Below are positions 1-30,849 of a stretch of 39,946 nucleotides of DNA, in pieces; the first letter of the stretch is position 1; every line of letters starts with the position of its first letter. A model generated the notes under the pieces. It worked only from the letters and a program-made list of their open reading frames with translations. It was not told where the DNA came from and ran no database searches. The translations under genes and the position numbers were made by a program. The DNA is from Rhodobacter capsulatus (GTDB taxonomy: Bacteria; Pseudomonadota; Alphaproteobacteria; Rhodobacterales; Rhodobacteraceae). The DNA lies in NCBI RefSeq assembly GCF_005144475.1, contig NZ_SWJZ01000058.1, positions 1 to 39,946 of the forward strand. Reading direction: 5' to 3'.

Positions 1-957
1 GCGATCGAATATCCGACGCGGCCCGTGTTTGTCATCAATATCTCGCGCGGCGGCATCCCGATTGCGCAATGGGACGCCGCCGCGGCCGATCCGAACATGT
101 GGGCCGCAACCCTGGCCAACGTCCCCGCGGCGCTCGCCGAAATCGCGGCGCTGACCGGCCAGACCGTGGACCGCATTGATGCCGCCTTCTGGTGGCAGGG
201 AGAGGCCGATGCCTCGAACGCCGCCGGATATCCGGCGCTGCTGGACGCGCTGATCACGCGTTTCCGGGATCTCTCCTGGTTTGGCCGGACGGCCCCGGTG
301 ATTTGCTCCGGGCTCTCGCCGTACTGGTCGACCAACCTCGAATCCATCATGGATTTGGCGATCCGCATGGCGGTCTCGATGGACGCTGGCCGCCGCCGTT
401 TCGTTGACACCAACCTGCTCCCCCAGTCGTTTTGGGATCCGACGGACAGCTACATCCACATGACCGGCGCCGGATACTGGGAGGCCTCCGATCTCGCTTG
501 GGACGCCTACGCAAACGGCGGCGGCTCGGCGGCCGTGGGCGAGAATTGGCAATATGATGGCGAAAACACCGGTGGTTTTGTTTTCGGCCGGTCGTTGCCG
601 CTGGCCGGGTATTTCAGCGCCTTCGTCAAGGACTTTGCAGGGGCATCGTTGCTGGCGATCGTCAACAACAGCACCGACGGCGCTGCCCGCGCCAGATTGC
701 AGGCGCGGGTCGGCGCCAAGTCGGTCAATATGGAGTGCGATCCCGGCAGTGGCGGGCGCCTTGTCTCGACGGACGATTACTGGGGGCTGATCGCCGCGGG
801 TCTGACGCTGGCGGTGTTTCAGGCCCCGGCGGCCGACAACCAGACCAGCGCCACGCTGCTCACGAAGATCGGGGGCGTCACCGTGACCAAGAAGGTCAAG
901 ATCGGCGCGGCGGACAGTGGCGGCACCGGGTATCGCATGCTGCGCATCGACAACTGA
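1..957 (+). CDS. Partial SGNH/SASA-like carbohydrate esterase, 5' end outside window
   Basis: The frame is open from base 1, so the start lies upstream; the GTG at 25 is only the first start-like codon inside the window. Seen: a GG-x-P-I-x-x-W block near residues 17-24, WWQGEAD at about 64-70, and an Asp/His segment (DSYIH) near 149-153. This order matches the sialate O-acetylesterase (SASA) branch of SGNH hydrolases, which remove O-acetyl groups from glycans. About 150 further residues follow and may be a separate beta-rich domain. In phages of this bacterial group such esterases often sit with tail-fibre genes and modify surface polysaccharide; that role is inferred from the integrated-element context. 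It could also be a non-phage esterase. Confidence 0.7.
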   Translation, partial: AIEYPTRPVFVINISRGGIPIAQWDAAAADPNMWAATLANVPAALAEIAALTGQTVDRIDAAFWWQGEADASNAAGYPALLDALITRFRDLSWFGRTAPVICSGLSPYWSTNLESIMDLAIRMAVSMDAGRRRFVDTNLLPQSFWDPTDSYIHMTGAGYWEASDLAWDAYANGGGSAAVGENWQYDGENTGGFVFGRSLPLAGYFSAFVKDFAGASLLAIVNNSTDGAARARLQARVGAKSVNMECDPGSGGRLVSTDDYWGLIAAGLTLAVFQAPAADNQTSATLLTKIGGVTVTKKVKIGAADSGGTGYRMLRIDN

Positions 958-1195
958 GGGGCATGTCTGGCGGTGGCGCCTGATGGCAGATCTGGGCGGT
1001 ACCCGCAAGGCTATGCGGCTGGCGCATAGCTTGATCGCAGTGCCCGTTTCCGGTTCCAGGCGCGGCCAAAGCGCCGCCTCTGCAGGGAGTTCCAACGTAA
1101 GTCACTGATATTAAATAACTTTGCACTAGGCGCAACAAGATGCGTCAAAAGTGCAAAGTTCCCGCCGCGCCAACGTCGATACCGCAACGCAAAAT

Positions 1196-1213
1196 CCCAA
1201 TAAAATAAGGCTT
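1196..1213 (+). repeat. 18-bp shared sequence, copy 1
   Basis: CCCAATAAAATAAGGCTT here is identical, in the same orientation, to 9154-9171. It is AT-rich within GC-rich surroundings. Both copies lie in gene-free DNA and are surrounded by a short word repeated in both orientations, but the word differs between the two places. Confidence 0.85.
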
Positions 1214-1267
1214 GAATGGGGTTTTCATCGGAGCGTACCGAAGTGACGTGGATAGGAGATCAAGCCT

Positions 1268-1298
1268 CATGTGGCGATGGCACGGTCATCGCCACATG
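1268..1298. other. Perfect 12-bp inverted repeat with 7-base loop
   Basis: CATGTGGCGATG at 1268-1279 is followed after seven bases by its exact reverse complement at 1287-1298. No T-tract follows on either strand, so a classical intrinsic terminator is not indicated. It could be a protein site or an RNA hairpin at the end of one of the converging transcripts. Confidence 0.7.
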
Positions 1299-1517
1299 GC
1301 ACAAAGTGCAAAGTTCGAGCGCACTCTGGAAGCCCATAGCATCCATAACGCTATGATCTATCGACACAAATCATCTTTTACCGGCTTTTCCCAGCTGTTC
1401 CCGGTTTTTGTCCGATGTACCGGGTGTTTTTGTCGGGTGACACCATCTGGGATCGGCTCGACGTCATTTTGAACCGAATCGAAAGGGGGAACGGCGGGCC
1501 TCCACCGTTCCAACGCC

Positions 1518-1685
1518 TCATCCCGCATCGAGGAGTTCACGCAGCGCTCGCACACGCGCCGGGGTTACCTTTGGATCGCGACCACCGCTGATCACGCGGA
1601 TGAACTCGATCCACGCCTTCTCGTTCTCGCTCAGCTGGTCCCACGGTCCCAGTGGTCCCCTCGGCACCATGAAGAGATCGCTCAT
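1518..1685 (-). CDS. 55-residue mini-protein matching the C-terminal segment of the adjacent XRE regulator
   Basis: The ATG at 1685 overlaps the stop of the upstream regulator by four bases (ATGA), so translation is probably coupled; this decides the start over a longer open frame to 1775. The protein has no helix-turn-helix. Residues from about 20 onward (NEKAWIEFIR, then GRDP) align with the last 35 residues of the regulator (NEKAWLDELR, then NSDP), ending in a similar Arg-rich helix. It therefore looks like a duplicated dimerisation or effector segment encoded separately. It might bind the regulator and change its activity; that is inference. No known family was recognised. Confidence 0.6.
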   Translation of the reverse strand: MSDLFMVPRGPLGPWDQLSENEKAWIEFIRVISGGRDPKVTPARVRALRELLDAG

Positions 1686-2080
1686 TTGCCGAAGATTCCA
1701 CGCAGCGTGCTCCGCCGCCGTGCCGTGATCCGAGGATCGCTGTTGCCAGATGCATCGCGCAGTTCGTCCAGCCAAGCCTTCTCGTTCGCGGTCACGGGCG
1801 TGCCGAAGATCTCGGTGATCGCTTTCGCCGCCGTCACACCCACCGCCTGTTCAAGTGCGATGCGCATCAGATAGGCCGGGTCGACCTCGAGCGCCTTCGC
1901 GAGCGACGGCACCCGGTCGAGTGGTAACTTGCTTTTGCCGGACTTCAGGATCGAGATGAAGTTCGCATTCGCGAAGCCAGCCTCGGCGGCGATCTCGTTT
2001 TGGGTCTTGCGATGGGCGAGCGCGTCGACACGATCGGAGATGAGCCGGGCGACTTCGCTGGTTTTGAAAGGGGTCGTCAT
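1682..2080 (-). CDS. XRE-family helix-turn-helix regulator (132 aa)
   Basis: A helix-turn-helix of the lambda-repressor/XRE type occupies roughly residues 10-70: the run TQNEIAAEAGFANANFIS is the scaffold and recognition helix, followed by KSGKSKLPL and a DRVPSLAKALEV turn. The C-terminal half is a separate helical segment found again in the overlapping mini-gene. I chose the ATG at 2080 because the longer open frame upstream gives low-complexity, unlikely sequence before the domain. It probably represses itself and perhaps neighbouring element genes. The 295 bases between it and the large NTPase gene hold no gene I can support; the promoter for this pair should lie there. The gene is transcribed leftward, like the NTPase and hipBA. 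Confidence 0.8.
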   Translation of the reverse strand: MTTPFKTSEVARLISDRVDALAHRKTQNEIAAEAGFANANFISILKSGKSKLPLDRVPSLAKALEVDPAYLMRIALEQAVGVTAAKAITEIFGTPVTANEKAWLDELRDASGNSDPRITARRRSTLRGIFGK

Positions 2081-2375
2081 GGTGGTTTTCGTCTCGTTTT
2101 TGTTGCTGATGAGACGACCGTAACGAACCGCACCGAGCGCGTCGGGTGGGAGTTGCGCGCGAATGACCGGGATCTGAATGCACGACCGAAGTCCTAGAAA
2201 AAACGCGTCGTGGTGATGGGGGTGCAGCCGGTGCCAGCCGGTTGGGGGCGTCTGAACCCTCCACTCCCGGTCGAAATGGCGATGACGGCCCACAGGCGAC
2301 ATTTATTTCGATCCAGCGCGCTGCAGTGCAGTGTCGCTAGACCGGACTTTCGCCGCGCCGCCCCCACAATCAAGT

Positions 2376-5300
2376 CTAGTCCACTGATGTGATGAAAACT
2401 TTCTCGGGAGTTTCCTGTCCGAGAAGCCTCTTCTCTCGCTCCTTGTTTCGGTCCTCGATTGCCGACTTTCTCGCTCTTCGAAACACAGGGGCATATTGTC
2501 TCCAGAGACTGGTCGTTGGTGCTTCGGGACTCACACGCGCATCCATAGAGGTCTTTGCAATTATCAAGCATCGCCAGAAGTCCTCTGGCTTCTGGGCGTT
2601 CCACATGCTCTCAACCCAATGCCCCGCCCATATGGCACCTTCGTGTTCCGAAAACGCATTCTTGGCGGCTTGCCCTGATACGCCTCTCTGATCGATGTGC
2701 TTGCCCAAGATGTCAGCAAACTCACCAGATCGAATTGAGTAGCCCGCAATCGAAATTGCATATGCTTGATCTAAGCTATCTTCGCTTGCCGCCAGTTCTA
2801 GGACCATCGATTTGATAAAGTCGGCAGCACCGAAGCGTTCGGCTGCAAGGACTTCCCGGGCGAGGACCGCGTCATTTTCTGAAGCCAGCAGCCTTTGACG
2901 CCACAACGCCTTCATTGGTTCTGACACTTCACCCCCCCAAATCGCTTGGTGCTCAAGCGTCAGGTCGTCTCCCAAGGCAAGCAATAAGAAACCCCGGGAT
3001 GATGAAGCCCGCTTCAGCAGAGCAACAGCATGTTCAGGGGCCTTCCCTGAAATAAGGTTTGCCACCGCGAAAGCTACGTTCTTGAGCCATACAAACTGAG
3101 CAATGTCTGCCTGATCCAATATATCGAAAAGATCACTCAGCAGTGCCGGGACTTCACGAACAAGACGCCCGAGGTTGTCGATGCCGATGTCCTGAACCAA
3201 AAGTTTTGCATCTGTCGCATTCAATTCTTCGAAAAACGCCTTCGCCACAGAGTTCAGTTTATTTCGCTTTTCATCGAAGTCATCATCACCTCCCAGAACG
3301 TCTTTAAGGATCCGTTGCTTGGGAAAGCGCTCTCCGTCGCGGTCCGTTTCTTCAATGGACAGAAAGGGAAACGGAGCCGGTTCAGATTTGGAAAGCTTCA
3401 AATCTGCCGAGGGCGGCTGAATTCCGTGCGTAGCCACGACCGCACTGCGAAGTCGCTGCACAAAGCAAGCCACCATCGGCTCCGTAAATTTTTTTCCAAG
3501 CCTTTCACTCGCCGCAAACCAAGTTTTCGAGCTAATCCGCTTCAGGAGGTCATCGACAGGCATTTCGCCGTGTGCGCATGCCTCAACCAGCAACATTGAA
3601 CCGAACCAGCCCTCATAAGTCTTTTCATCCAATGAGGCCGCGTTCCAGTTGCTGCGCATGTGTGCTTGCCGAACAACATCCAGATCATTGTAGGTGGCTA
3701 ACTCATAGGCAACGGCGCGGAGCTTCGAAGACGCCCCACGAGAACAGGCCAATATCTGTTGTTCGAGTTCACCGGTAATCTGCGTTTGACCGTAGAGCGC
3801 CGCCGCAAGGGCACCATACGCCGCTTCTTCATTGTTTCTTTGAAGGGCGTCCCGAATTGCGGATGCTATCTCGTCTGTTGGCTGCGCCTTTAAGCTTGGG
3901 ATGACCGAAAGAAGATAGTCTGATCCAAAAGCCCTGTCTGTCATGCACCTAAGCTGTTCAGCTGCCGAAATCTGCCCGGCGCAATAGTAAAATCCGAAAG
4001 CTCGACAAATCCACTGATCTTGATCCGGCAATGTATCGAAATCGTTACTCGCTTGAACTCTCTTAAACAAGCCCACTGCCAAGTCAGCATCGATCAGCGG
4101 GAGGTGATCCTCGGAATTCAAGATTACTTGTCGTAAAGGAAAACCAGTTCTTGTAAGTAGGCCCGACAATATGCTGCGAGTTTTTTCAACAGCGGCTTCG
4201 GGTTCAAAACGGGCGGCGATAGGAAGAAAGTCTCCGAAATTGTGGTCTTCGCCGCTGACCCCCATGGTCTGCCGCATCTTGTTAACGTCGAGAGCAACGA
4301 ACTGCCGCACGCCTTGATCCATGTCTGAAGGTCGCATGACTCCGGGGTCTGCCACTTTGACCTGACGCCATTCGGTTGGCGATGGCGGCTCAAAGTGATG
4401 CCAGTCTTTTTGCAATTCTCTGGCTATCACAGAAGCTTCCTGAGCGTCTCTCTCGTCACCGCTGGCATAGAGCATTCGAACAACCGTCCATTGTCCACCT
4501 TTCGAAGATTCTTCAAGGCGCAGTGGTTCAATCGCCTTTCGGAAGGCATCTCTCGTCGCGGCGCGATCAATTCGATTGAAAGTTGTAAGCTGCGGAAACT
4601 CTTTTCGCGCTTTATAAATATTTCGATCCAGTGCGAACGCAATGCCCATCGCCACAAAGCTTTCTGCGAACGGCACTAGGGAATGACCTGCCAGCAGCCT
4701 CAGAGCCAACGATATCAAGTCGTCAGGTTCGCTCGGCACTTCGGTCATCTGATCTAGAAGCCGCCTTTCGAACGTGCAGAGGCTTGCCAATTCCCCATCG
4801 ATCTCCGCTTTCCTTTTTTCCACTTTTTCTGCGTAATCTGCATCACCCTGCGTATGATAACGCTTGGCTTGCTCAGCGGCGTCTTTGTGATAGCAGCGAA
4901 GCCAGTGATGGATTGCGGTTTCGGCAGCACGCCAACCCTCATCGGTCAAAGAGACCATGAATGCAGCATGGACCAACCAGTCGTGATTTATCCGCCGACC
5001 ACTTTCAAGGCACAGCAACTTGAGGGTATCGAATAGCGCATCCGGTTGATTTTTTATAATCTCGACAAACTCTTCGAAGCGTTTTTCGCTCACGTTCTGG
5101 AGGTTAGCGAAAGCATCCAGCAGAACGGAAAAAATCGCGCGATCGAAACGGATATTATCCAAAGCGCATATCAGTAACGAAGCAAATATGACGTCAATCG
5201 TTCGGTCCATCGCATTGATTGGTTCGACAAGTTGAGTTATCCGGTCGGACAAATCACGGTTTGCCAAGTGAGTTTGCCACAGTTGGTCGATGAGCGTGAA

Positions 5301-6920
5301 ACCCAGTGCAAGGGTCAAGCCCTCATCTCGAAGTTCATAAAGATCGCCTGGCCCCGGGAGCGGCCGAAAAAATCTTGTCTCAATGACCGCTTCGGAGTCG
5401 GCGTGAAAGTTCTGAGGCGGTTCGTTCTGTGACGCTTGCACCCGTTCAAGAACCTTTCTTGCATGGTCACTAAGACGGTTTGTGAGCTGCTTAAAGGTCT
5501 CGTCTTCGTAGTTCTCTAGCTGTGATGCGCGAAGGTGCTCCATCAGCAGCCTGTCTGTGGTCAACCCTTTCCATGCGATGGCATCTCGATGTGGTAGGGT
5601 TGCGACCGCGACCGCCAGTAATCTCGGATTCTTGAGTGTTTTCAAGGTTTTTTGGTCGAGCCAGTCGAGTGCGATCCCATAGTGCTTCAATAGCTCATCG
5701 CGCTCTGTGGGCGACCATTCAGGAACCCCGAAGGTTTTCGGCCTAAATGCCAAACCGCGGGCGATTGTTTTCTCCCAGAAGTGGGATCTGACGGTTACGA
5801 CCATCCTACCTCTGATTTCCGCCAACCGGGATTGGATGCCGTTAAGTAGTTTGTCCCAACGGAAGTTTTGTCGCTGATTTAAGCCATCGACGACGACCAG
5901 CAACGAGGCTATTGACGGCGTAGCTCTCCATGCCTCAAGCCGGTGCATCCACCTACGCTTTAGCGCATCATCGGCAAATTCGCCAGTTTGCTTGATTAGC
6001 AGGTCGACCAAGAAATCATCAAGGTCGTGGACAGACACGCCGTCAAGCTGCTCAGCGCTGATGAATAGCGCCAAACCTGTGTCGTCGGAACATAACTGAG
6101 CGGCAAGCCATGATTTCCCGTGCCCCTCATCCCCCAATAGGATTACTTCTTTGCCTGTTGCCAGTTCACTCGAAATGTTTTTGCGTAGCTCAGTGCGCAT
6201 TGGCGGAAAGTTCTTCTCCTGCTGAACTGCAAGCCCTTGTCCGAGCCGCTCCCTAGCGTGACGTGTGGAGCCAAAGGTTTGTTGTCGCCATGTGGCATTC
6301 TGATCGACCGCGCGCTTGAACGACAGCTTCGAGACATTGAGGCTGGATTTGAGATACTGGAGGAGACTTTCGAACTCCGGATGCGCTGAAATGGAAGAGA
6401 ACGCATTTTTTAGATCCTCTTTGCTTATTTCTTTCTGCGCGGTTTTCTTATCGTAATTTCCGACAATGAAATCTATTGCCGAACTATCTGCTGCAACCAC
6501 AGCAATGGCTAGAAGCGGCAGCGGGGCGGCAGTCCAATCTAGAATCAATGTGGAGATAGCGTTTTTATCACCATCCTCCTCAAGGTCTTTTGCTATCTGC
6601 GTGCTGACTTCAATTGTTGCGCCGAGAACCCATAAACGATCTGCAGCTTTTTCCCGTCGACCCAGATCGGCGATTTTGACTATAACGTCTTTCCGATCAA
6701 TCTTTCCTGAATACAATTTGGCCTCAAAACAGACGGGATCGGTTCGCATTGCTGCGTCGCCATCCATCCCTCCTTGCAGACCACTGGCCGCAAGCCGAAA
6801 CGGAATGCCTGTTAGGTTGGTCAGCGCAATCCGAAGGAGTCCTTCAAATCCATCTGCGCCTGCGGCCTTGAGCGACAGTAGGCCGGTTTTTACCGTTTGA
6901 AGGTGCGCGTTGATAGACAT
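2376..6920 (-). CDS. Avs-like STAND NTPase with N-terminal PD-(D/E)XK nuclease-like domain (1514 aa)
   Basis: Three parts are visible. Residues about 20-100 carry a nuclease-like core: GFEG (E26), GGMDGD (D53) and FEAKLY (E66-x-K68), in the order of PD-(D/E)XK enzymes. Residues about 220-480 are a P-loop NTPase: Walker A GDEGHGKSW at 263-271, Walker B LLVVVDGLNQ ending at D345, and an Arg after the next strand (VVTVRSHF, R378), as in NACHT/STAND proteins. The remaining roughly 1000 residues are mainly helical with no motif I recognise, like the sensor arms of bacterial NLR-type proteins. Effector, NTPase and long sensor in one chain is the plan of Avs proteins, which detect phage proteins, assemble and cleave DNA. 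That function is inferred by architecture. The gene is clearly lower in GC than the rest of the window, a sign of transfer. A conflict-related restriction-type ATPase is the alternative. Confidence 0.75.
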   Translation of the reverse strand: MSINAHLQTVKTGLLSLKAAGADGFEGLLRIALTNLTGIPFRLAASGLQGGMDGDAAMRTDPVCFEAKLYSGKIDRKDVIVKIADLGRREKAADRLWVLGATIEVSTQIAKDLEEDGDKNAISTLILDWTAAPLPLLAIAVVAADSSAIDFIVGNYDKKTAQKEISKEDLKNAFSSISAHPEFESLLQYLKSSLNVSKLSFKRAVDQNATWRQQTFGSTRHARERLGQGLAVQQEKNFPPMRTELRKNISSELATGKEVILLGDEGHGKSWLAAQLCSDDTGLALFISAEQLDGVSVHDLDDFLVDLLIKQTGEFADDALKRRWMHRLEAWRATPSIASLLVVVDGLNQRQNFRWDKLLNGIQSRLAEIRGRMVVTVRSHFWEKTIARGLAFRPKTFGVPEWSPTERDELLKHYGIALDWLDQKTLKTLKNPRLLAVAVATLPHRDAIAWKGLTTDRLLMEHLRASQLENYEDETFKQLTNRLSDHARKVLERVQASQNEPPQNFHADSEAVIETRFFRPLPGPGDLYELRDEGLTLALGFTLIDQLWQTHLANRDLSDRITQLVEPINAMDRTIDVIFASLLICALDNIRFDRAIFSVLLDAFANLQNVSEKRFEEFVEIIKNQPDALFDTLKLLCLESGRRINHDWLVHAAFMVSLTDEGWRAAETAIHHWLRCYHKDAAEQAKRYHTQGDADYAEKVEKRKAEIDGELASLCTFERRLLDQMTEVPSEPDDLISLALRLLAGHSLVPFAESFVAMGIAFALDRNIYKARKEFPQLTTFNRIDRAATRDAFRKAIEPLRLEESSKGGQWTVVRMLYASGDERDAQEASVIARELQKDWHHFEPPSPTEWRQVKVADPGVMRPSDMDQGVRQFVALDVNKMRQTMGVSGEDHNFGDFLPIAARFEPEAAVEKTRSILSGLLTRTGFPLRQVILNSEDHLPLIDADLAVGLFKRVQASNDFDTLPDQDQWICRAFGFYYCAGQISAAEQLRCMTDRAFGSDYLLSVIPSLKAQPTDEIASAIRDALQRNNEEAAYGALAAALYGQTQITGELEQQILACSRGASSKLRAVAYELATYNDLDVVRQAHMRSNWNAASLDEKTYEGWFGSMLLVEACAHGEMPVDDLLKRISSKTWFAASERLGKKFTEPMVACFVQRLRSAVVATHGIQPPSADLKLSKSEPAPFPFLSIEETDRDGERFPKQRILKDVLGGDDDFDEKRNKLNSVAKAFFEELNATDAKLLVQDIGIDNLGRLVREVPALLSDLFDILDQADIAQFVWLKNVAFAVANLISGKAPEHAVALLKRASSSRGFLLLALGDDLTLEHQAIWGGEVSEPMKALWRQRLLASENDAVLAREVLAAERFGAADFIKSMVLELAASEDSLDQAYAISIAGYSIRSGEFADILGKHIDQRGVSGQAAKNAFSEHEGAIWAGHWVESMWNAQKPEDFWRCLIIAKTSMDARVSPEAPTTSLWRQYAPVFRRARKSAIEDRNKEREKRLLGQETPEKVFITSVD

Positions 6921-7206
6921 ATACTTAACCTAACTCTAATCCATATAAGATGCCCGCAGTGCGTGAGAGCGGCACGGTTCTCTTCGCTGCCAGTAGAATT
7001 ACAGCTACCAAGGGCTGCCCTCAATCACTTGCAGTTACCAAAAGTCACAGCGTGTATTCTTCAGACAGGTGGCGTTGGGCGCATCTGCTTTCGCTTAACC
7101 CCTATTCGTGCCTGTGTCTCTGGCGACACCCTGCGTCCAAAGCAACCTCGGCGCTTCACGGTTGCCGCCCGCGGAACACCGGAACCGAATGGGGCCAAAA
7201 TCTCGC

Positions 7207-8511
7207 TTACGGTCGATTGATGATCAAACCATCGCGTTCAGGTATATCGATCTCCGCGTTCAGCGCCTGCGCGAACCAGCCTGCCTGTTCTGCCATCGAA
7301 TCGCCGAGCGGTTTCAGACTCGGTCCCCGCATCGGAGCGATCTGGACGACGGCGGCCTGCACGATCTCGATCAGGCGCTTGCGCAGCGCGGGTGTGAAGC
7401 GCGGAAAACCAAGCGCGCGGATAAAGTCTTCGAGGTCGGCCGCAGTGATCTCGTCGGTCATTTGCGCGCGTCCGATGTCGAAGGCCAGCTGATGCGTCAC
7501 TTCGCGGTCGATCAGCACCGGCGCGACGTCATAGACCGGCGCCAGAACGGGACGCGCTCCGGTGTAAAGCAGCGCATGGTTCTTCGCGTGGTTGTCGGTG
7601 TTGCCGAGAAGCAGGTTCACCAGCGTCACCTCAAGGAACGCTTGACGCGCGCGGCCGGGGTTGGCGGTCTGCGCGAGCAGCTCTCCCACCGAGCGCGCCT
7701 CGAAGCGGCGGCTATCGCTGCTGTTGCGCTGGTATTTCAGATGCGGACCAAGACCGAGCGCCTGGGCGAAATCCTCCTGATGGATGCGATGCACGACCCC
7801 GCCGTCGCACAGCCGATCGAAACGGGTGACGAGCAGTCCTTGAAGGTCGCCCTCTCCAAACATCGCGGTTTCAGCGACCGGGTGGCGCTGCATCCCGCGC
7901 ATCAGGCTCATCAGCACATGTTCCTGTCGCACCAGCGCCATTTCTGACGACCGGGGCACCTTCAGGATATGCGTCGTCGGCACGTTCAGCCCGCGTTTGG
8001 GCAGCGCAAAGCGTCCATCCGCAAGCTGTGTCAGTGCGACCTTGCCTTGAACGCCCGCAAGCGGAGATGGATCGCGGGTGTCGTCGGGCAGACGACGGCG
8101 GTCACGCAGCGAGACCATGATCCGAGTGAGATCCTCCGCATCGAGCGCGTCATAGTCGGTCGCAAGATCGCCGGGCGTCTTCGCCGGACCTGCCCCCATC
8201 GAAACGCAAGAGATCGCACCGGGGCAATCGGCGCCCAGGTGTTCAAGCTGCCCGACGATGTCGGACCAGTCGAGCCGGTAGCGTTGCAGGATCTGCTCGC
8301 GCTGCGCATTCTCGAAGAGCAGGTTCGAGAAGAAGGCGCGTGTCACGGCATCGCTGAAGGGTTCTTCGCGGAGTGGCAGCGAGAGCGACAGCGGATGGGG
8401 CAGCGTGTCGGTGAGATAGGCGAAAGCAAGCGCCCCATCGTCGAACCGGGTCAAACGACCGATCGGCTGCGCGCGGGCTTCAAGGAAGACGTCGAGGTCG
8501 AGCCGGGGCAT
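7207..8511 (-). CDS. hipA: HipA-type Ser/Thr kinase toxin (434 aa)
   Basis: HipA kinases phosphorylate a translation target (glutamyl-tRNA synthetase in E. coli) and cause growth arrest; the target here is unknown. Seen: the P-loop region SPLAGVQGK at about 149-157, THILK at 180-184, HQEDFAQ at 244-250, the catalytic loop LLGNTDNHAKNH with D306 and N304/H308, and the metal-binding APVYD with D328. All key kinase positions appear intact and the length is usual for the family. The start lies one base beyond the hipB stop, so the two are one operon under the hipB promoter. About 285 bases follow before the start of the NTPase gene on the same strand, so read-through into that gene is possible. 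Confidence 0.92.
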   Translation of the reverse strand: MPRLDLDVFLEARAQPIGRLTRFDDGALAFAYLTDTLPHPLSLSLPLREEPFSDAVTRAFFSNLLFENAQREQILQRYRLDWSDIVGQLEHLGADCPGAISCVSMGAGPAKTPGDLATDYDALDAEDLTRIMVSLRDRRRLPDDTRDPSPLAGVQGKVALTQLADGRFALPKRGLNVPTTHILKVPRSSEMALVRQEHVLMSLMRGMQRHPVAETAMFGEGDLQGLLVTRFDRLCDGGVVHRIHQEDFAQALGLGPHLKYQRNSSDSRRFEARSVGELLAQTANPGRARQAFLEVTLVNLLLGNTDNHAKNHALLYTGARPVLAPVYDVAPVLIDREVTHQLAFDIGRAQMTDEITAADLEDFIRALGFPRFTPALRKRLIEIVQAAVVQIAPMRGPSLKPLGDSMAEQAGWFAQALNAEIDIPERDGLIINRP

Positions 8512-8512
8512 C

Positions 8513-8734
8513 TCAGGCGCTCAAGGTGATCTGCAAGCCGAGATCGCGGCAGATTTGCAGGACAAGACCGATGCGGGCGGTCTCCTTGCCGTTCTCGATC
8601 GCACTGAACGTCGCCGCCGAGACCCCGCTCTGCATCGCGGCCTCGGCCTGCTGCAAGCCAAGTGCCTGCCTGCGCGCCCGGATCGCCTGTCCGAGCTCGG
8701 CAACGGTGGAGATGGGGGTGAGGGTGTCGGTCAT
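8513..8734 (-). CDS. hipB: HipB-type antitoxin and operon repressor (73 aa)
   Basis: This is a small XRE helix-turn-helix protein: ARRQALGLQQAEAAMQSGVS then ATFSAIENGK at about residues 20-50. HipB proteins bind and silence HipA and repress the shared promoter. Its stop is one base before the hipA start, as in known hipBA operons. Three palindromic sites lie just upstream, the nearest only eight bases before the ATG, which fits tight autoregulation. The length is normal for HipB. Confidence 0.9.
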   Translation of the reverse strand: MTDTLTPISTVAELGQAIRARRQALGLQQAEAAMQSGVSAATFSAIENGKETARIGLVLQICRDLGLQITLSA

Positions 8735-8741
8735 CGCGCCA

Positions 8742-8859
8742 TCGACGATCGTTGAAATGAGTGTTGAGGATGCACCACCTTGGGGCTTGCGTCAACGATC
8801 GTTGAAATTGCAGTTTGAGGAGGGCTGCAGGGGGGGGGCGCCGTTTCAATGATGGTTGA
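8742..8859 (-). promoter_or_regulatory. Three palindromic operators upstream of hipBA
   Basis: A perfect 14-bp palindrome TCAACGATCGTTGA lies at 8792-8805. Near-palindromic relatives lie at 8742-8755 (TCGACGATCGTTGA) and 8846-8859 (TCAATGATGGTTGA). Start-to-start spacings are 50 and 54 bp, close to five helical turns, so bound dimers would sit on about the same face of the DNA. A possible leftward -35 box (TTGACG) overlaps the middle site. By analogy with HipB in other bacteria these are probably its operators. Confidence 0.75.
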
Positions 8860-9023
8860 TATGACGTCCCAAGCGGGCCGGGGCAGTCGCCGATGCAAAG
8901 GTGCAGGTTTCCGAGGAGACATGCCTTGAAGGCAGAGAGGCGAAGTCCACATGCGCGCCGCCAACGATGCCTTCGGCGAGTTCGCCAGAGCGTGCTGAGA
9001 GGGTTGCATCAGGGTTGCATTTT

Positions 9024-9191
9024 GGTTGACACTTGGTTGACAAAATGGCCTCCAAAGTTGACAACGGGTTGACATTTGGTTGACAGGCGACATCAAAAAC
9101 GTCGTTTCTGTCAACCTTTCGGGTCTTTTTGTCAACCTTGTCAACCTCGAAAGCCCAATAAAATAAGGCTTCGACGCTCCCAAGGTTGACA
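9024..9191. repeat. Array of nine GGTTGACA octamers, helically phased
   Basis: Forward copies start at 9024, 9035, 9056 (AGTTGACA), 9067, 9078 and 9184; reverse copies (TGTCAACC) start at 9109, 9130 and 9139. Spacings within the left block are 11, 21, 11 and 11 bp, close to one or two helical turns. This looks like an iteron or multi-operator array. The 18-bp shared sequence lies between the last reverse copy and the last forward copy. The TTGACA core also equals a sigma-70 -35 box, but so many copies make a simple promoter reading unlikely. Confidence 0.8.
9154..9171 (+). repeat. 18-bp shared sequence, copy 2
   Basis: This is identical to 1196-1213 and in the same orientation. Here the surrounding word is GGTTGACA instead of AGTGCAAAGTT. 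Read on the minus strand in one frame, both copies would encode KPYFIG, but neither sits in a convincing gene. Confidence 0.85.
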
Positions 9192-9903
9192 AAAGTCTCG
9201 GAAAACTTTTTTCCACCTTAAAGCGCGGACTTCAGGACGGGGCATCCCGAAACGAAATCCATCGAAACCGGATCGAAAACCCTGCTCTGCGGCATGAAAA
9301 CGCGTCGGCCCATGACGATCACACCGGCGCGGATTTCGATGTGAAGGTGGCTGTTATGAGCATGTTTCCTGCGCCGCGCTTCGTGAAATGACTGTAGCTC
9401 ATCAGCTGAACAGTTATTCAGCTATGTAGACAGCGCGGCGAAGGACGTCGTTTCTCCGGTTCGATCGAAAATGCACTTGGGGCGGTCACAGGCTGCGATC
9501 TCGCGCGGGTGCACGTGACCTCATGCGTGATGATGGATGCGACTCAGCGCGCGCCCCAATGGGTCTGACGCACGCTCCGTGGTCGATCTGCGGTGGTTGA
9601 TGTCGATCTGCATGATGAAGTGCGAAGCTAAAGGGTGGAGGACAGCGGCGCCCGCGGCTTCTTTTTCGTGAGCCGATCTGTGCCCGAGCCCTCCACTGCT
9701 GTCCGGGCCTTGGCTCCCCAACGACCCCGCACAGTCGGTGATCCGTTTCGGGGATGTCTGCTCGCCGCGCGCGCAAGAGGCGTCTTCGGCTCGACGTTAA
9801 CAAGGCGAATGGGTCGACGTCGACCGAAGAACACGCTACCGTGAGAGCGCTCGCCTTTCCACGACGCCCAACGCAAGCGCTCCCTATGTGCAGGCGGCTG
9901 TTG

Positions 9904-10380
9904 ATGATAGATATGGATTTTCGAATGTTCGGCCTTTTTTCTAAAGTCTTGTTCTTCGGGATTGTCGGTTACGCTGGATATGTCGCGTATGATCTCCATC
10001 GAGCTGGGTATTTTGAGCTCCCTGACATCCCAGACGGGTCTTACCCAATCTCGTTCACTTCTGGGTTTCGAGCCATCGTTCATGGCGTAGATGCGACCGA
10101 AGAGGTGATGTATGACGCGCCCAAGTGGTTTCGTCGGCTCAACAGCGCGGTTCCTGAGCGCAGGTTCTTGGGTATCCCTGCGAATGTCGCTCCTTGGTTC
10201 GCTAGCTCTTGGTCGAATTGCTACCCACCGACCGCAGAAGAGCGGGATGGCTACTACGCATCACTGCCTGAGGAAACTCAGAAAAACCTCGAGCACGCGC
10301 GTCTTGATGGTGTGTGCGTCATCGAGGTGGATGGCGACAAAATGCTCCGTGGATTGATTTTCTCGGTGCCGAGGGTGTAG
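9904..10380 (+). CDS. Orphan single-pass membrane protein, hypothetical (158 aa)
   Basis: I do not recognise this protein. One clear membrane segment lies near the N-terminus (about residues 9-25, FSKVLFFGIVGYAGYVAY), followed by about 130 soluble residues with aromatic-rich stretches (FRAIVHGV, APKWFRRL, SSWSNCYPP). The ATG at 9904 puts the membrane helix in the usual place; ATGs at 9886 and 9913 are alternatives, and a longer open frame to 9754 adds only Arg-rich sequence. It stands alone between the repeat array and the serine recombinase. A small inner-membrane accessory protein of the element is the most that can be said. Confidence 0.55.
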   Translation: MIDMDFRMFGLFSKVLFFGIVGYAGYVAYDLHRAGYFELPDIPDGSYPISFTSGFRAIVHGVDATEEVMYDAPKWFRRLNSAVPERRFLGIPANVAPWFASSWSNCYPPTAEERDGYYASLPEETQKNLEHARLDGVCVIEVDGDKMLRGLIFSVPRV

Positions 10381-10495
10381 GCCGCTCGTCGCTCACCTCT
10401 ACACACACTTCATATTGTGGCTGCGGTGAGAGCCGGGCGCGCTGAACATGTCCGGTGAACCCTGATCTTCCTTGCGCTCGGAGAGGGGATGCTCC

Positions 10496-10532
10496 ATTGT
10501 GCTATTCGTCGGAAATCTGCTAATAGCACAAT
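10496..10532. promoter_or_regulatory. 11-bp perfect inverted repeat upstream of the serine recombinase
   Basis: ATTGTGCTATT (10496-10506) and AATAGCACAAT (10522-10532) are exact reverse complements separated by 15 bases. The site lies about 65 bases before the recombinase start. It could be the recombinase's own binding site, an operator, or an RNA hairpin. There is no T-tract. Confidence 0.65.
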
Positions 10533-10597
10533 CTGACACCTCAAAACCCGACCGCAACCCCCCGTAATTCATCACCCCCTCAAAGACCCCACCCAAC

Positions 10598-11473
10598 ATG
10601 AGCACTAGCAAAGATCGTCCAAGCATAGCAGTAGGTTACATCCGCCTCTCTACAGAGAAGCAAGCTCAGGATGACATAGAATTCGAAAAGCAGGCCGCGC
10701 GCATCAGGAAAGCCTGTGCAAGCCGTCGTTTCACCCTTCTCGGTATCTACGAAGACACCGCTTCCGGTGCTGATCCTCTTGGAGGTGTGCGTCGTGATGG
10801 TCTGATCGAAGCCGTCGCCCGCGCTCGTGCCGAGGATGCTTTGTTGATCATTCCCGAGCCGACCCGTCTGTTTCGAAACGTCGAAGCCGCGCGTGACTTC
10901 CTCAAGACGCTCGATGTTCCGGTCTTTTCTGTCAAAGATGCCCGTTTCATGAAAGCACCTGCCCTGCTTCGGGCGATCGAACGCGGCGAGGAAGTCGTTC
11001 AAAACATCCGCAAAGGCACGTCCGAGGCGCTGTCGACGAAGAAAGCCGAAGGCGTAGAATTCTCCGACACGTCTGTTCGCAAGAAAGCGGCCCAGGCTTC
11101 TGCGAAAGCCAGGTCAGAGAAATCCGAGGGCATCGTCATTCGAGTGGCGAACATCCTCCGGTCCGATCCTGCTTACCGTGATCTGTCGCACAAGGCGCTT
11201 GCGGATCTTCTGAACCGTCACCGTATCCTGACCGGGTGGAAACGACCCTGGACGCAGAACAGCGTCAGGGACGTGCGCAGGAAAGCCGAAGAGTTCATCG
11301 CGATGCAGGACGAGATCGACAACATGGACGACGATCTGGAGGCCCTTCCTGCGGTTCAAGGTGTCTCTACCCCCGTTCCGGTCATTGAGGCCACCGAGCC
11401 GCCTGCTGAGCCCACCGAGGAAGAGCTGGTGCTGATGGAGTTGCAGAAGAACCCGAACTTCGGCGTGTTTTGA
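10598..11473 (+). CDS. Small serine recombinase/resolvase-like protein (291 aa)
   Basis: The N-terminal 130 residues form a resolvase domain: VGYIRLSTEKQ places the nucleophile at S18 with R16 beside it. The later EPTRLFRN supplies R90 and R93, matching the paired active-site arginines of the family. A Thr precedes the first of them, where many resolvases have Asp. A helix-turn-helix-like region follows (about 195-235, KALADLLNRHRILTG then WTQNSVRDV), then an acidic, Pro-rich tail. No strong ribosome site precedes the ATG. It should catalyse site-specific DNA exchange, or act as an invertase or resolvase for the element. The C-terminal half is shorter than in large serine integrases, so it is unlikely to be the main integrase. 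Confidence 0.8.
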   Translation: MSTSKDRPSIAVGYIRLSTEKQAQDDIEFEKQAARIRKACASRRFTLLGIYEDTASGADPLGGVRRDGLIEAVARARAEDALLIIPEPTRLFRNVEAARDFLKTLDVPVFSVKDARFMKAPALLRAIERGEEVVQNIRKGTSEALSTKKAEGVEFSDTSVRKKAAQASAKARSEKSEGIVIRVANILRSDPAYRDLSHKALADLLNRHRILTGWKRPWTQNSVRDVRRKAEEFIAMQDEIDNMDDDLEALPAVQGVSTPVPVIEATEPPAEPTEEELVLMELQKNPNFGVF

Positions 11474-11510
11474 GGCCGATCTGCTGCCCGGTTGTGATCC
11501 CCCTGGCTTC

Positions 11511-11522
11511 GTAGAATTCTAC
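11511..11522. repeat. GTAGAATTCTAC palindrome, downstream copy
   Basis: This is a perfect 12-bp palindrome just after the serine recombinase gene and beyond the 3' end of the leftward broken gene. The same palindrome recurs at 12283-12294 with a one-base variant at 12243-12254. A weaker relative (GTAGAATTCTCC, 11054-11065) lies inside the recombinase gene. Confidence 0.7.
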
Positions 11523-11610
11523 CGTTGCAGCCATCGGTGCATGGTGTCCGGAATTGGGGAATGGCTACAAGGTGGGACCGACCGCCGGGCGAACGTGATC
11601 CGTTTGAGGG

Positions 11611-12210
11611 TCAGGATTTCCGGTTCGTTTCGATCCAACGACGCAGCTGGTCGAGAAGATCGGCCGTGAGCGTCGTCCCTCGTGCAAGGGCGGTTCCAAG
11701 CGATGCATCAAGCGGTTTGCGACCCAGTTCGCGCATGACCTCGCCGACTTTCATGCTGCGCCGGTCTATGATCTCTCGCACTTCGGTGCGCTCGTCATCG
11801 GTGAGTTGGCCGCGGCCTGGTTGCAGATGTTTTGGCATCAGAACGGGCGTGGTTGCGACGTTGGTTGGTCGCCCCGGCGCAGGATATGTCACAAGATTCA
11901 CGGAGCGAGTCACTGGCTGCATTGATGGTGCTCCGGCCCCAAACCCGCCACCCGGCGCAGAGATGGCTGCAGGAGCGCCTGTGGCGGCCATGCAGCCTAT
12001 GCGCATCTTGAAGGTATCGCGCTCTACCGCGGATGCCTCGGTCCACGCCTCTTCGAGCTTCTCGAGCGCCGTCTTGACCTTGATCTGACCAGCGGCCTTT
12101 CTCGCCTCGGTGATGTTCTTGAACTTCCCGGCGAGGTAATCGGCATGGATCTGCGGGTGTTCGCGGCGCAGGCGTTCAAGCTAATAAGTGTTGTCGCGCT
12201 TCTGCTTCAT
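11611..12210 (-). pseudogene. Conserved hypothetical gene interrupted by an in-frame amber codon
   Basis: From the ATG at 12210 the frame reads MKQKRDNTY, then TAG at 12183-12181, then continues in the same frame without another stop to 11611: LERLRREHPQIHADYLAGKF and onward, about 190 residues. The sequence across the stop keeps one character (basic N-terminus, a YLERLRREHP-type helix), so a sense codon, perhaps Tyr or Gln, was probably lost. The C-terminal third (MPKHLQPGRGQLTDDERTEV to the end) is helical. I place it with small proteins that accompany recombinases and phage-type islands but know no function. A downstream ATG at 12006 could still give a 131-residue fragment. Confidence 0.65.
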
Positions 12211-12242
12211 GGTCGTGTTGGCGTTCTTGTCCGATGATCTGC

Positions 12243-12294
12243 GTAGAATTCTATGGTGGGCGAGCAGGCTGATGCTCGGTCGGTAGAATTCTAC
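12243..12294. repeat. Pair of GTAGAATTCTAC-type palindromes
   Basis: GTAGAATTCTAT lies at 12243-12254 and the perfect palindrome GTAGAATTCTAC at 12283-12294, 40 bp apart (about four helical turns). They sit just upstream of the broken leftward gene. With the copy at 11511-11522 they bracket that gene. They probably bind a symmetric dimeric protein. Confidence 0.7.
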
Positions 12295-12465
12295 GAGCCT
12301 GCCTTATGGCTCGGCATGACGAATACACATCCGGGGAACGGCAGCAAAGCGGGATCGGTCAGACGTCACCTTGTCCACTGCCTCGGCTATTGCCCGGGCC
12401 CGGCTCAGAACCTAAGACGAGGACTGTTTTTCGGATGTTTGAGGTGAAGCTGCACGAAAAGGACG

Positions 12466-13089
12466 GTGTTCGAGGTGGCAATCTGTGACAAATGCGGCGG
12501 CGAGATCGCGTTTCGCTATGTCGATGGTGTGCTCAGGCCGCTTCACATCGGTGGCGGGCTGTGTGACGGCCTGGAACGCGTCACTGAACCGGTTCCGCGT
12601 CACGGCTGGACGCACGACTGTTACCTCGATCCGAACGCGTCCTGCCCGGTTTGCGGGGCTCGGGTGTATTTCTACCAAAGTCGGCACGGTGGGAGGGTCT
12701 TGTTCGACGATGTCGGGTGGCCGTGGCCGAAGCATGGATGCACGGACGACGATCAGCGGTCGATCAGGGTCAAGCGTGCTCCGTCCGGTCGATCCCGCGT
12801 GTTTCGCGACAAATCCGGCGCGCTGCTCAAGATCTATGACCTTGACGACATCGAAGACCGGGGTCGTAACTACCTGCTCGTGCTGCGCAACCAGATGACC
12901 GGCTCCCGGGTGCGTGTCCTCGTCGGTAAGACCAGGCTCTCGCAAGGCAACATTCGTCTTGCAGACTTCCAGGATGCGCCGAGCATCGTCGTCCACGAGT
13001 TCGAACAAGGGGCGAGCCACATTCGGCTTGATTTCGTCTGTGTGAGGCTGGGCAAGGTCGCACGGGTGAAGTTGCGGGCCGCGCGGTGA
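12466..13089 (+). CDS. Zinc-ribbon conserved hypothetical protein (207 aa)
   Basis: Two Cys pairs are visible: CDKC at residues 7-10, and C60-P-V-C63 followed by H74, H90 and C92, with C33 and C52 between them. The core CPVCGARVYFYQS, then GGRVLFDDVGWPWPKHGC, is a recognisable pattern of a widespread uncharacterised zinc-ribbon family often found in mobile and accessory regions. The C-terminal half is soluble and beta-rich, perhaps a nucleic-acid-binding fold. The GTG at 12466 is preferred because AAAAGGA lies just before it; GTG at 12475 is possible. It is transcribed rightward towards the leftward integrase gene. Function is unknown. Confidence 0.7.
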   Translation: MFEVAICDKCGGEIAFRYVDGVLRPLHIGGGLCDGLERVTEPVPRHGWTHDCYLDPNASCPVCGARVYFYQSRHGGRVLFDDVGWPWPKHGCTDDDQRSIRVKRAPSGRSRVFRDKSGALLKIYDLDDIEDRGRNYLLVLRNQMTGSRVRVLVGKTRLSQGNIRLADFQDAPSIVVHEFEQGASHIRLDFVCVRLGKVARVKLRAAR

Positions 13090-13120
13090 CCTGCCCTGCT
13101 TGACCTCCAGCGCGACGTCG

Positions 13121-14766
13121 TCATGATCCGCTCAGAAACCGCGGAAAATTCGCCATCTGCTTCGCCAGCGCGGGTAGCATCGCTTGCGATTTGCCATACC
13201 CGGCAGCGGAGCCCTTTATCGAACGACCAGTGATGTAGTTCGAACCGTCGGTCTCGATCGCACCAAAGCGGAGATCTTCGAAAAGATGACGAAAACCGTG
13301 GTTAGGGCCGGGTTTCGGATAAACCAACTCCGGCAGGACCTGTTCCCTTATCCAGTCGCGGAGGTTACCGTCCATACGCGCGTTGGTGAATATCTTACCC
13401 CCGGCCTGCTGTCGACAAAGTTGATCAGTCCTTCATCGACAAGCGCAGGATGAACAGGGACTGTCCGGCTCGTTTTCGTCTTCGTCGTGCGATCGCCGCC
13501 ATGCCGAATATGATAGAACCAGTCCTGCCCGATTTGGAAGAAGTCCTCCTTGGTCAATTGAAGGATCTCTCTCACGCGCGCGCCGCTATAAGCGAGCATC
13601 CACGGCACCCAGCGCTTATAACTGGCCTCTTGCGCCCGCGCTGCGATCAAAACCCTCTCGGCCTGCGCGACGGTGTAGGTGCGTTCTGCGCTGTCGCGTT
13701 CCTCAAGCTCAGGAAGCTCGAAGCCATCGAGAGGAACCCCTGCAGGAAAGAGCTTCTCGCTCGACTGTGACTGCCCCCAGTTCAGCACCGATTTGATGCA
13801 ACTGACTTTGTCGCGCACCGTCTTTGTCGCGAAATCGTTGTCGATCAGCTCGTCACGCCAACGTTCGACTTCTTCCTTCGTCACTGTCGCGGCGCGCGGG
13901 TTCTTGCGCCATTCGACGAATTCCTTGGTGATCGTGCGATACTTGCGAAAGGTGCTCTCGGACTTCGTCCGGCCGAGGCCCCGCCGCGAGCGCTTCTCCT
14001 GTTCGTCGATGATGTCGGAGAACGAAGTGAGATCGAGCTTGGTATTGCCCTTCCGGAGCATGGGGTCACGCGGGCCTCCGCCAAAGTCTCCTTGGTCGCG
14101 CTCGTTCTGACGTTCGAGCAACTCGATCTCCGCGCGCATCAGACGATCACACAACTTGATGAACTCTTCCGAGACCTCATCGGGATTGAGCGGGTTATAA
14201 CGTGTGATCGGCAGCGACTGACTTTCGATCAGGTGCTCGGCCTCATGCGCAATCAAGGCGTATTCTCGTCTTGCGAGATGCGCGCGCAACTCACTCAGGC
14301 GGATACGCCTGTGATCTTGCGCCATATTCGATAGATCCAAGTTGCTGATTTCGTCGAGCATCAGATCCAGCGCCTTGGAGGGATCAACATTCGCACCGGA
14401 TTGGCGAGGACGAACAGCGAGCCGACCGACCGCCTCCTCCATCCAAGCATCCTTCTGCGCCGCAAGCGGGCGCTTGTCGCGTTCAGCCAGATCGGCCTGC
14501 TCTTGCTGGTGGTAGTAATACCGCGCTAGCGTCTCGACATCAGCGGTGCTCAAGTCAGGCTTTCGGCGGGCTTCTTCGATTTCACGGTCCCATCCCACAA
14601 GAACGGCGCGAACCTTCTTGCGTGCGAGGCGCTCGTCTCGTGTCTCAAGCGACTTTGAGAACTCGTCCCTTCCGATCACCCCAGCAACATCCCTCGGAAC
14701 ACGACGACGCGCATACCAAATGCCACTCTTGGGGTGTTTTGTCAGGTAGTCCGGCAGCTTGCTCAT
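13121..14766 (-). pseudogene. Tyrosine-recombinase integrase with a C-terminal frameshift
   Basis: The main frame starts at MSKLPDYLTKHPKSGIWYAR (ATG at 14766, GGCGGG just before it). It reads a SAM-like DNA-binding region and the first catalytic block YSGARVREI (catalytic Arg about residue 397), then KTKTSRTVPVHPAL. It then runs into unlike residues and stops at 13348. The missing end lies one frame away, 13375-13121: NHGFRHLFED (HxxR box), GRSIKGSAAGYGKSQAM (catalytic Tyr) and FPRFL. Restoring one base in the C run at 13398-13402 joins both frames smoothly. The gene sits beside the tRNA-derived att site with its start towards it, as expected for the element's integrase. It may be inactive, rescued by slippage, or a sequence error. 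Confidence 0.85.
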
Positions 14767-14874
14767 TACCCGCCTGTGTAGCAGTCTGTGGTGCAGCCGG
14801 TGTATCAATCGCGCCGAAAAACATCAATATTCCGGTAAGTTAGTGTTTTTCAAAGGTGCACGCCGGTGAAAGAG

Positions 14875-14902
14875 GAGAGTTCGAGTCTCTCATCACCCAC
14901 CA
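14875..14902 (+). other. tRNA 3'-end fragment: attachment-site (att) end of the integrated element
   Basis: Bases 14875-14891 form a T arm: stem GAGAG, loop TTCGAGT, stem CTCTC. Then come the acceptor strand ATCACCC, discriminator A and CCA (14899-14902). The expected 5' partner GGGTGAT, D arm and a matching anticodon arm are absent to the left, where integrase leader DNA lies instead. This is the 3' part of a split tRNA gene left by integration. The whole tRNA should be rebuilt at the other end, outside the window. A GGGTGAT acceptor fits a valine-type tRNA best, but the identity is not settled. Confidence 0.8.
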
Positions 14903-15019
14903 GGCCCCGCCGCGACCGGCCCGCTGAACCGGACAACCTTTGCGCAAGCCCCATGTCGGCGCTTGCGCAAACGGATCTCGGCGCTGGGGGATTGTCAGGG
15001 CGCAGAACCGGAGGCCCGC

Positions 15020-16117: not shown

Positions 16118-16454
16118 CACTACCTACCCGAAGTTGAGAACAGTATTACAAGGAATGAGCACCAGGTGCATCGTTAACACTTCATTCATCTTAAGGTAGA
16201 TTGCGCGTCTGTCCTAGAGGCTTTCGCCCCGACCTTGCTGCGATGCCGCAAATTTGCCGGAATCGGTGCGGACCCTTGACAGGGTTGAACAAACTGCGAC
16301 GCCGGAATGGTTAACCGTTCCGGCGCGCACAAGGATCAGACCCGTTCCGCGGCGCTCTGATCGGGGAAAGACCGGCGGGCAGCCGAATCGCCCGCCCACC
16401 AGCCGGATCAGGACGCCGGTTCTCCGGCGGCGCCCCGTTCCGGCCCTGCCGCGC
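16118..16454. other. Intergenic region between the WecA-like and ClpP-like genes
   Basis: Both flanking genes run leftward, so this holds the end of one transcript and the promoter of the next. A perfect 7-bp stem (GGCGGGC 16374-16380, GCCCGCC 16390-16396, nine-base loop) lies shortly after the ClpP-like stop. It may help termination, though no U-tract follows. The large palindrome at 16300-16325 is listed separately. I see no gene here. Confidence 0.5.
16300..16325. promoter_or_regulatory. 26-bp near-perfect palindrome with GGTTAACC core
   Basis: Outer arms CGCCGGAA (16300-16307) and TTCCGGCG (16318-16325) are exact reverse complements. The centre GGTTAACC (16309-16316) is itself a perfect palindrome. 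Only the pair 16308/16317 (T against G) breaks full symmetry. It lies about 185 bases upstream of the WecA-like start and could be an operator or a symmetric terminator hairpin. Confidence 0.6.
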
Positions 16455-16970: not shown

Positions 16971-17197
16971 TTGATCACCCCAAGTCTTGGCATGCCAAGG
17001 CACGCCCCCCCGGACGCCTCGCAAGCGCCCGGGGCCAGTAGAGCGTCGCGGGTTTAACAAAGCCTTAGCTTGTGCCGGACGGCCCGGGACGAATGGCTAA
17101 AGTTCTCGAAAAAGGCGACGCAACCCGCCCGGGACGCGCCTTGCTCGACAGCGCCGCGCCCGGCCCTTAGAACGGGGCAAAACCCGAGAGGACAGCG

Positions 17198-18598: not shown

Positions 18599-18649
18599 GG
18601 AATTGCGGCCGCGCCGCCTTCGTGCTTGCCTTGCCCTGTCCAGACTTGC

Positions 18650-18677
18650 ACCGTCACGACTTGAACCGTCACGACTT
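18650..18677 (+). repeat. Two tandem copies of ACCGTCACGACTT between manB and manC
   Basis: The 13-bp unit ACCGTCACGACTT lies at 18650-18662 and 18665-18677 with a 15-bp period. A partial relative (GACTTG) precedes them. They sit in the 102-base gap ahead of manC and might affect its translation or reflect local duplication. Confidence 0.7.
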
Positions 18678-18700
18678 TCACCATCCCGAGGGGGCCGCCG

Positions 18701-20134: not shown

Positions 20135-20138
20135 GAGC

Positions 20139-21119: not shown

Positions 21120-21128
21120 CCGTCCGGC

Positions 21129-23350: not shown

Positions 23351-23471
23351 GAGGCCAGAGCAGGTCCGGGTTGAGGGCGTTGACGCCGGGGTGATTTCCG
23401 ATATGCCTTGCTCTCGAAGGCGGTCTGGCGCCTTCACGGCACCCGCACAGTATAGGGGACAGTGGCAGCCC

Positions 23472-25696: not shown

Positions 25697-25702
25697 GCGC
25701 CA

Positions 25703-30752: not shown

Positions 30753-30849
30753 GCCGCGGCGCGGCGCGGAAACCCTCTTGCGCCGGGCCCTGACTTGCCC
30801 CGATAACGGCCGGGGCCCGACAGGCCGGGGTGGATTTGGGGGCAGGCCG

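Follow-up and report, generated by a model that had tools for sequence, protein, structure and literature searches.

The nuclease-STAND gene at positions 2376..6920 (-) of the window, i.e. the whole 39,946 nt stretch of Rhodobacter capsulatus DNA analyzed here, probably encodes a single-protein anti-phage nuclease switch of the Avs/bNACHT kind, with the abortive-infection mechanism proposed below. The protein most likely represents a distinct family, not named by PADLOC or NCBIfam, that would work like Avs4 or bNACHT25. Its parts and key codons are as follows.

2376..6920 (-): nuclease-STAND gene, open reading frame with an ATG start, 1514 aa; 17 full-length members aligned, dN/dS 0.18 and 0.135
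6516..6920 (-): Mrr-type PD-(D/E)XK nuclease head, residues 1–135, assigned by conserved residues and Mrr_cat links
5361..6215 (-): STAND/NACHT-like NTPase with the helical region that follows, residues 236–520, assigned by NACHT matches, an Avs4 profile match and Foldseek
2379..5360 (-): helical, solenoid-like arm, putative sensor, residues 521–1514, from a low-confidence model and homology between family clades
6843-6845 (E26), 6762-6764 (D53), 6723-6725 (E66) and 6717-6719 (K68), all (-): catalytic codons of the head
6114-6116 (K269) and 5886-5888 (D345), both (-): codons of the NTPase

The alignment consists of 17 full-length relatives and excludes L004, a frame-disrupted copy from a Roseicyclus MAG, as well as L012 (split, and a near-duplicate of L013) and partial matches. 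Residues invariant in 17 of 17 include E26, Q49, G51, D53, E66, Y70 and W97 in the N-terminal part, G263, G266, G268, K269, D345, G346, N348, P432 and R433 further on, and D1460 and R1462 near the C-terminal end. An earlier note, made from the letters alone, had read a nuclease-like core (E26, D53, E66-x-K68) and a complete Walker A/B in this protein. Both readings hold, with E26, D53 and E66 invariant and K68 nearly so (R in L025), and with K269 and D345 invariant within GDEGHGKS at positions 263–270 and DGLN at positions 345–348. The sensor Arg of the same note can be matched to R378, a residue with at least 90% conservation in a 12-row alignment but absent from the 90% list of the 17-row alignment. 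By mean pairwise column identity, the head (0.34) and the NTPase (0.28) are the best conserved parts and the middle of the arm (0.19) is the least conserved. The architecture observed earlier is confirmed.

The gene is under purifying selection. For the whole gene dN/dS is 0.18 against the relative in Aliiroseovarius and 0.135 against that in Zobellella, the latter at synonymous distances near saturation (1.1–2.4). By these two values, what was observed in the sequence is more than chance. That the gene is decaying and has no present function is very improbable. Besides the frame-disrupted L004, such a reading has in its favor the split of the element's integrase between frames, and four loci in which only 3′ pieces of the gene, 80–88% identical to the window, are present.

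L005 14-712: 3′ gene piece
L006 5399-5830: 3′ gene piece
L007 213-632: 3′ gene piece
L008 212-631: 3′ gene piece

The pieces in L005, L007 and L008 start no more than 340 bases from a contig end, and that in L006 comes after a transposase-like ORF. Gene loss is thus unproven at these loci, and the pieces may be remnants or interrupted copies. The window copy, however, is one open frame in which the motifs are present, and dN/dS is 0.085–0.253 in every region tested. A decaying gene was rejected on dN/dS.

At E ≤ 0.1 the NACHT model of Pfam matches 10 of the 12 members searched, the strongest of them with E 1.7e-6, and the match of the window protein itself, 12.9 bits, is below the Pfam cut-off of 26.7. 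The Walker B Asp of NACHT proteins is usually followed by a small residue, with a second acid two positions after that. Here G346 is invariant, and an equally invariant N348 is found where the second acid of NACHT would stand.

An Avs4-type set was assembled from L042, a match of the Avs4 model, and four plasmid genes; four of these sequences span the NTPase. Comparison of the family NTPase with these four by hhalign gives a probability of 97.4 and E 1.1e-11 (reversed control E 0.26), and comparison of full length with full length gives a probability of 95.2 and E 2.8e-8 on the same NTPase stretch. Judged by these profiles, the NTPase core is homologous to that of Avs4.

The structural model of residues 1–700 has a pLDDT of 61.5 and a pTM of 0.34; confidence in the models is low because 6 and 7 alignment rows were used for the predictions. 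A Foldseek search with this model places Avs4 bound to the phage portal first (8dgf, E 6.9e-6 and 1.7e-5), followed by NLRC4 (1.2e-3) and CED-4 (2.4e-3); SAMD9 is matched at 7.9e-3. The search gave 565 matches at E ≤ 10, and apart from the two Avs4 chains none of them reaches E ≤ 0.001; the TM-scores obtained for Avs4 are about 0.2. From 3.7e-3 onward the list has many AAA+ proteins, Cdc48/p97 for example. The weak models, the low TM-scores and these AAA+ matches count against the preferred explanation. Invariant Walker motifs, profile homology with the Avs4 core and a fold search of modest confidence together point to membership in the STAND NTPase superfamily. The Avs-like reading of the earlier note called for a PD-(D/E)XK or STAND fold and for no clear place in a non-defence family; a STAND fold was found and no non-defence family appeared, and the reading stands to that extent.

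In the head, Mrr_cat (Pfam) is detected at E ≤ 1 in 8 of 16 sequences (best 0.0072), and the window protein's own head has no Mrr_cat match in Pfam. A profile of the family, searched against 292 genomes of the order, reached two further proteins through their N termini with E 2.9e-5 and 2.0e-4, in one genome each. These E-values are modest taken alone, since they are per-genome values in a 292-genome search. The two proteins have Mrr_cat scores of 27.4 and 28.9 bits against a cut-off of 21.

L088 5416-7404: protein with Mrr_cat and TIR
L089 4045-6321: protein with Mrr_cat and nSTAND3

F25, E26, G51, D53, K68 and Y70 are invariant in 10 of 10 sequences, i.e. eight family heads and these two proteins. 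The TIR and nSTAND3 proteins are like the window head in the N-terminal F-E, G-x-D, K-x-Y frame. They differ from it in that Q replaces E66 and in that the head is joined to TIR or nSTAND3 in place of the NTPase and arm of the window protein. The catalytic frame E...D...(E/Q)xK of Mrr_cat and of PD-(D/E)XK nucleases is present in the family heads, which by sequence belong with the Mrr_cat-type PD-(D/E)XK nucleases. The helix-strand order of the head model fits a PD-(D/E)XK fold, but most of residues 45–124 have a pLDDT below 50, and it is therefore the sequence that carries the fold assignment. The fusion of an Mrr-type head to TIR in L088 and to nSTAND3 in L089 looks as though this head could be traded between proteins as an effector. 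Exchangeable effectors are described for Avs and bNACHT proteins in PMC12799240.

The model of residues 500–1514 (pLDDT 54.2, pTM 0.33) is of low confidence and consists almost wholly of helices. A fold search with it gives HEAT-type proteins as the nearest solved structures, at E 2.4e-3 or worse and none at E ≤ 0.001, which suggests a solenoid. Pfam models find nothing at E ≤ 0.1 in the part of the window protein past residue 520 or so. The earlier description of about 1000 helical residues free of known motifs agrees with these results.

It is improbable that the protein is a far-diverged Avs4, sensing the phage portal protein through an arm that has changed beyond recognition by sequence. 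Avs4 is the best fold match, is of similar length and has a homologous NTPase core. The E. coli Avs4 head alone also matches the family (E 0.047 and 0.036), its catalytic residues falling in the same register, with a score equaled by 3 of 300 shuffles; a two-row profile of Avs4-type heads gives no match to the family head (E 0.62; reversed 0.41). The arms, however, are without detectable homology. Profile comparison of the family arm with the Avs4 arm has a best E of 0.4 (reversed control 0.85), whereas four pairs of family clades align over 845–926 columns of the arm at E 3.2e-38 or better. The heads of the same four pairs match at E 4.2e-20 or better. This clade comparison used 16 of the 17 rows (L014 was excluded as a near-duplicate), and the 16 members compared part by part gave no sign of an exchanged head or arm.

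Curated models also speak against an Avs4 identity. The window protein matches no PADLOC family at E ≤ 1 and no NCBIfam family at E ≤ 0.1. Among 12 members PADLOC gives one Avs2 match at E 0.029, and Avs4 is absent among the 7 families listed; among 17 members the only NCBIfam model matched is the IS21 helper ATPase (3 members, best E 0.041). A search with the Avs5 model gave one weak match, which was not used for classification. In searches of PDB sequences, neither the protein itself nor the 12-row or head profile rose above chance-like matches. Plain Avs4 membership was rejected because the arms do not match. The earlier note had recognized no named Avs type in the arm and had proposed a profile search against the Avs families. 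This is borne out as far as tested, as no curated model of AVAST types 1–5 in PADLOC or NCBIfam matches the window protein. Surveys relying on the PADLOC and NCBIfam models used here would overlook it, since none of them names it.

A scan with one genome per species gave 17 candidate stretches, which came down to 6 loci. These are full-length relatives in Aliiroseovarius (85% identity) and in the gammaproteobacterium Zobellella (69% identity), the frame-disrupted L004, and the 3′ pieces L005, L006 and L007. A search of plasmid records gave 13 matches in Alphaproteobacteria and Nitrospirota, 6 of which cover at least 80% of the query; the features under the 13 are named hypothetical protein (7) or NACHT domain-containing protein (4, RefSeq), and 2 have no feature. 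A search of plasmid DNA gave nothing at the megablast level. Counting the gene's own genome, full-length members are present in 2 of 289 genomes of the class, 4 of 398 of the phylum, 3 of 394 of the family and 3 of 292 of the order, with partial matches in an additional 2, 4, 2 and 3 genomes, respectively. The family is thus rare and scattered. Viral-contig scans confirmed one full-length relative (L034) and the 3′ fragment L008, and phage records yielded no relative. In L034 (1-12569) the full-length relative is followed by what we take to be an integrase-like gene and, further on, presumably a Zot-like gene.

Altogether the members span Alphaproteobacteria, Gammaproteobacteria and Nitrospirota. 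A tree of 20 full-length members, rooted at the midpoint, displays three groups, and support is strong for 14 of its 17 inner branches; the placement of L017, which sits on a long branch, is uncertain. The window sequence groups with Aliiroseovarius, then with Zobellella, then with another genome of the window's family. The presence of a gammaproteobacterium among the sequences grouping with the window, and of Nitrospirota plasmids beside Ensifer, indicates horizontal transfer.

In the window the gene has a GC content of 51.7%, compared with 65.0% for the whole window and 69.7% for positions 16000-39946, so the earlier statement that its GC is below that of its surroundings is correct. It is the sole match to itself in its own genome at E ≤ 0.001. 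The gene had been placed near the end of an integrated element together with hipBA, which is confirmed in part. Flank comparison locates the right boundary of the element near position 14,877, where a congeneric genome aligns at 93%, and the hipBA genes are indeed upstream of the STAND gene; the left end was not found by this comparison.

7207-8511 (-): hipA, upstream of the STAND gene, open frame, GC 63.8%
8513-8734 (-): HTH gene in the hipB position, open, just upstream of hipA, giving a HipBA-like pair

With a GC content of 63.8% against 51.7%, hipA need not share the origin of the STAND gene. Other loci of the window were also seen. A DUF6538 tyrosine-type integrase gene is located next to the right boundary (13121-14808, (-)), with its C-terminal catalytic part in another reading frame; being split between frames, it looks broken or reflects a sequencing error. 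A resolvase-type serine recombinase is at 10598-11473 (+), and a small HTH gene with a weak HTH_19 match lies directly downstream of the STAND gene at 1682-2302 (-). The DNA of positions 1-1443 is repetitive: 1-959 recurs as a 92% copy on a second contig of this genome, and a congener has several partial copies.

The neighborhoods of 17 loci were analyzed from predicted ORFs of at least 160 aa that reach within 6 kb of the gene (116 of 119 used; three of L002 were excluded for size). Searched with PADLOC at 1e-10, the 116 neighbors match 151 families, and the best 25 of the 151 include HamB (up to 3 members), HamA (2), Drt3a, other reverse transcriptases and PDC-M23B. In addition ten selected neighbor proteins from eight loci were scanned singly with PADLOC. 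Family members were found near Drt3a and Drt3b (DRT3) in L003, HamA and HamB (Hachiman) in L013, HamB adjoined by a RefSeq HamA in L017, a STAND protein with an Avs4-like stretch in L020, and PDC-S37/Hhe in L035. The neighbor proteins scanned from L036, L037 and L038 have no PADLOC match at 1e-8, and in the window itself hipBA is the only recognized neighbor of a defence-associated sort; both findings count against an anti-phage switch. PADLOC-recognized defence genes thus occur within about 6 kb at no fewer than 5 of 17 loci; this count covers the matches assigned to a locus, a third HamB being among the others, and leaves aside the near-duplicates of L013 (L012 and L014). L018 has a gene named RloB by RefSeq in its neighborhood. 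At L086, outside the 17 loci, SIR2_2 and HerA-type genes are beside a family member, with TniQ and transposase-like genes near.

As a control, 77 of 86 ORFs from seven regions (positions 16000-31900 of the window and six regions from other genomes, unmatched to the plasmid loci) were searched and gave 65 PADLOC families. The 25 listed include mad3, mad6, RtcR, PDC-S19, methyltransferase, PD-T4-6, C3a189 and MkoA; Hachiman, DRT and Avs are absent among these 25 of 65. The contrast between neighborhoods and control is a qualitative one, since the families compared are those listed and PADLOC matches alone are unspecific. That the control regions gave PADLOC matches as well counts against the preferred explanation. 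The Avs-like defence interpretation of the earlier note is supported by the relatives near Hachiman, DRT3, SIR2 with HerA and another STAND gene.

Several of these loci show further arrangements. L020 (Azospirillum) has two large STAND-type genes in tandem (556-5763 and 5881-10545), the first with an Avs4-like stretch at 858-1283 and a PDC-M54A-like N-terminal part. In L086 the TniQ, transposase-like, SIR2, HerA-type and STAND genes lie together (139-15160) and are possibly transposon defence cargo. In Aliiroseovarius the family gene is located between an integrase gene and tRNA-Phe, and a search for direct repeats at the ends of this island found none. A DUF6538 integrase adjoins the family member in L087 (6232-7341).

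As an alternative, the nuclease switch might be aimed not at phages but at plasmids or other mobile elements, or it might serve in competition or in the upkeep of its own element. Relatives are on 13 plasmid records (in a plasmid-only search), integrase or transposase domains occur among the relatives' neighbors (Phage_integrase in 4 of 116), and the window gene is near a HipBA-like toxin-antitoxin pair. The recognized neighbors, however, include the anti-phage systems Hachiman and DRT3, and Avs1–4 sense phage terminase or portal according to PMC12931631 and PMC12724215. This alternative is a little less probable still than a far-diverged Avs4.

For an anti-phage switch of the Avs/bNACHT kind, the following mechanism is proposed. 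At rest the Mrr-type nuclease head would be kept inactive by the NTPase and the arm. On infection the C-terminal helical arm would recognize a phage product or an infection-induced host state, whereupon the NTPase would exchange nucleotide and oligomerize. The heads, brought together, would cut DNA, and the infected cell would die or stall ahead of phage release. We infer DNA cutting, oligomerization, phage sensing and the abortive outcome by analogy with known systems.

Bacterial STAND receptors recognize phages by phage proteins, and to our knowledge few of their triggers are known. It is possible, at somewhat less than even chance, that the family is an AVAST-like type of its own, monophyletic and present in at least two phyla, in which the arm of about 950 residues and the same head are inherited as a unit and would sense a conserved phage feature other than those of Avs1–5. 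The reading of head and arm as a unit covers full-length members, 20 in the tree and 16 compared part by part. The arm is conserved from Alphaproteobacteria to Nitrospirota and is unrelated by sequence to that of Avs4, which suggests a conserved trigger worth finding. No published description of the family was recognized in the literature searched, which is weak evidence of absence as most subscription papers are outside its coverage.

Compared with known systems, Avs4 (8dgf) is like the window protein in being a single protein with an N-terminal nuclease-type head, a STAND core and a long C-terminal part, and its chain length is 1587 aa compared with 1514 aa. The cores are homologous, but the Avs4 arm has no detectable relation to that of the family, the head match is marginal and PADLOC does not match the window protein. 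Avs1–3 and Avs5 have the effector-STAND-sensor plan in common with it and are set apart by curated models only, as no PADLOC or NCBIfam match was found. Avs1–4 are nuclease-based and Avs5 is Sir2-based, according to PMC12931631, and an NLR-like system in Caulobacter is described in PMC13236601.

The bNACHT25 and bNACHT32 proteins (clade 6) have an N-terminal PD-(D/E)XK DNase, a central NACHT module and a C-terminal helical domain according to PMC12169576. The window protein has the same three-part plan, a likeness by description and not by sequence; it differs in a NACHT match below cut-off and in the invariant DGLN at Walker B in place of the usual second acid. The same source reports that D48A in bNACHT25 abolishes defence, that MS2 infection leads to DNA degradation and that the trigger acts via the host chaperone DnaJ. 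Since bNACHT25 is triggered through DnaJ, an indirect trigger is possible for the window protein as well.
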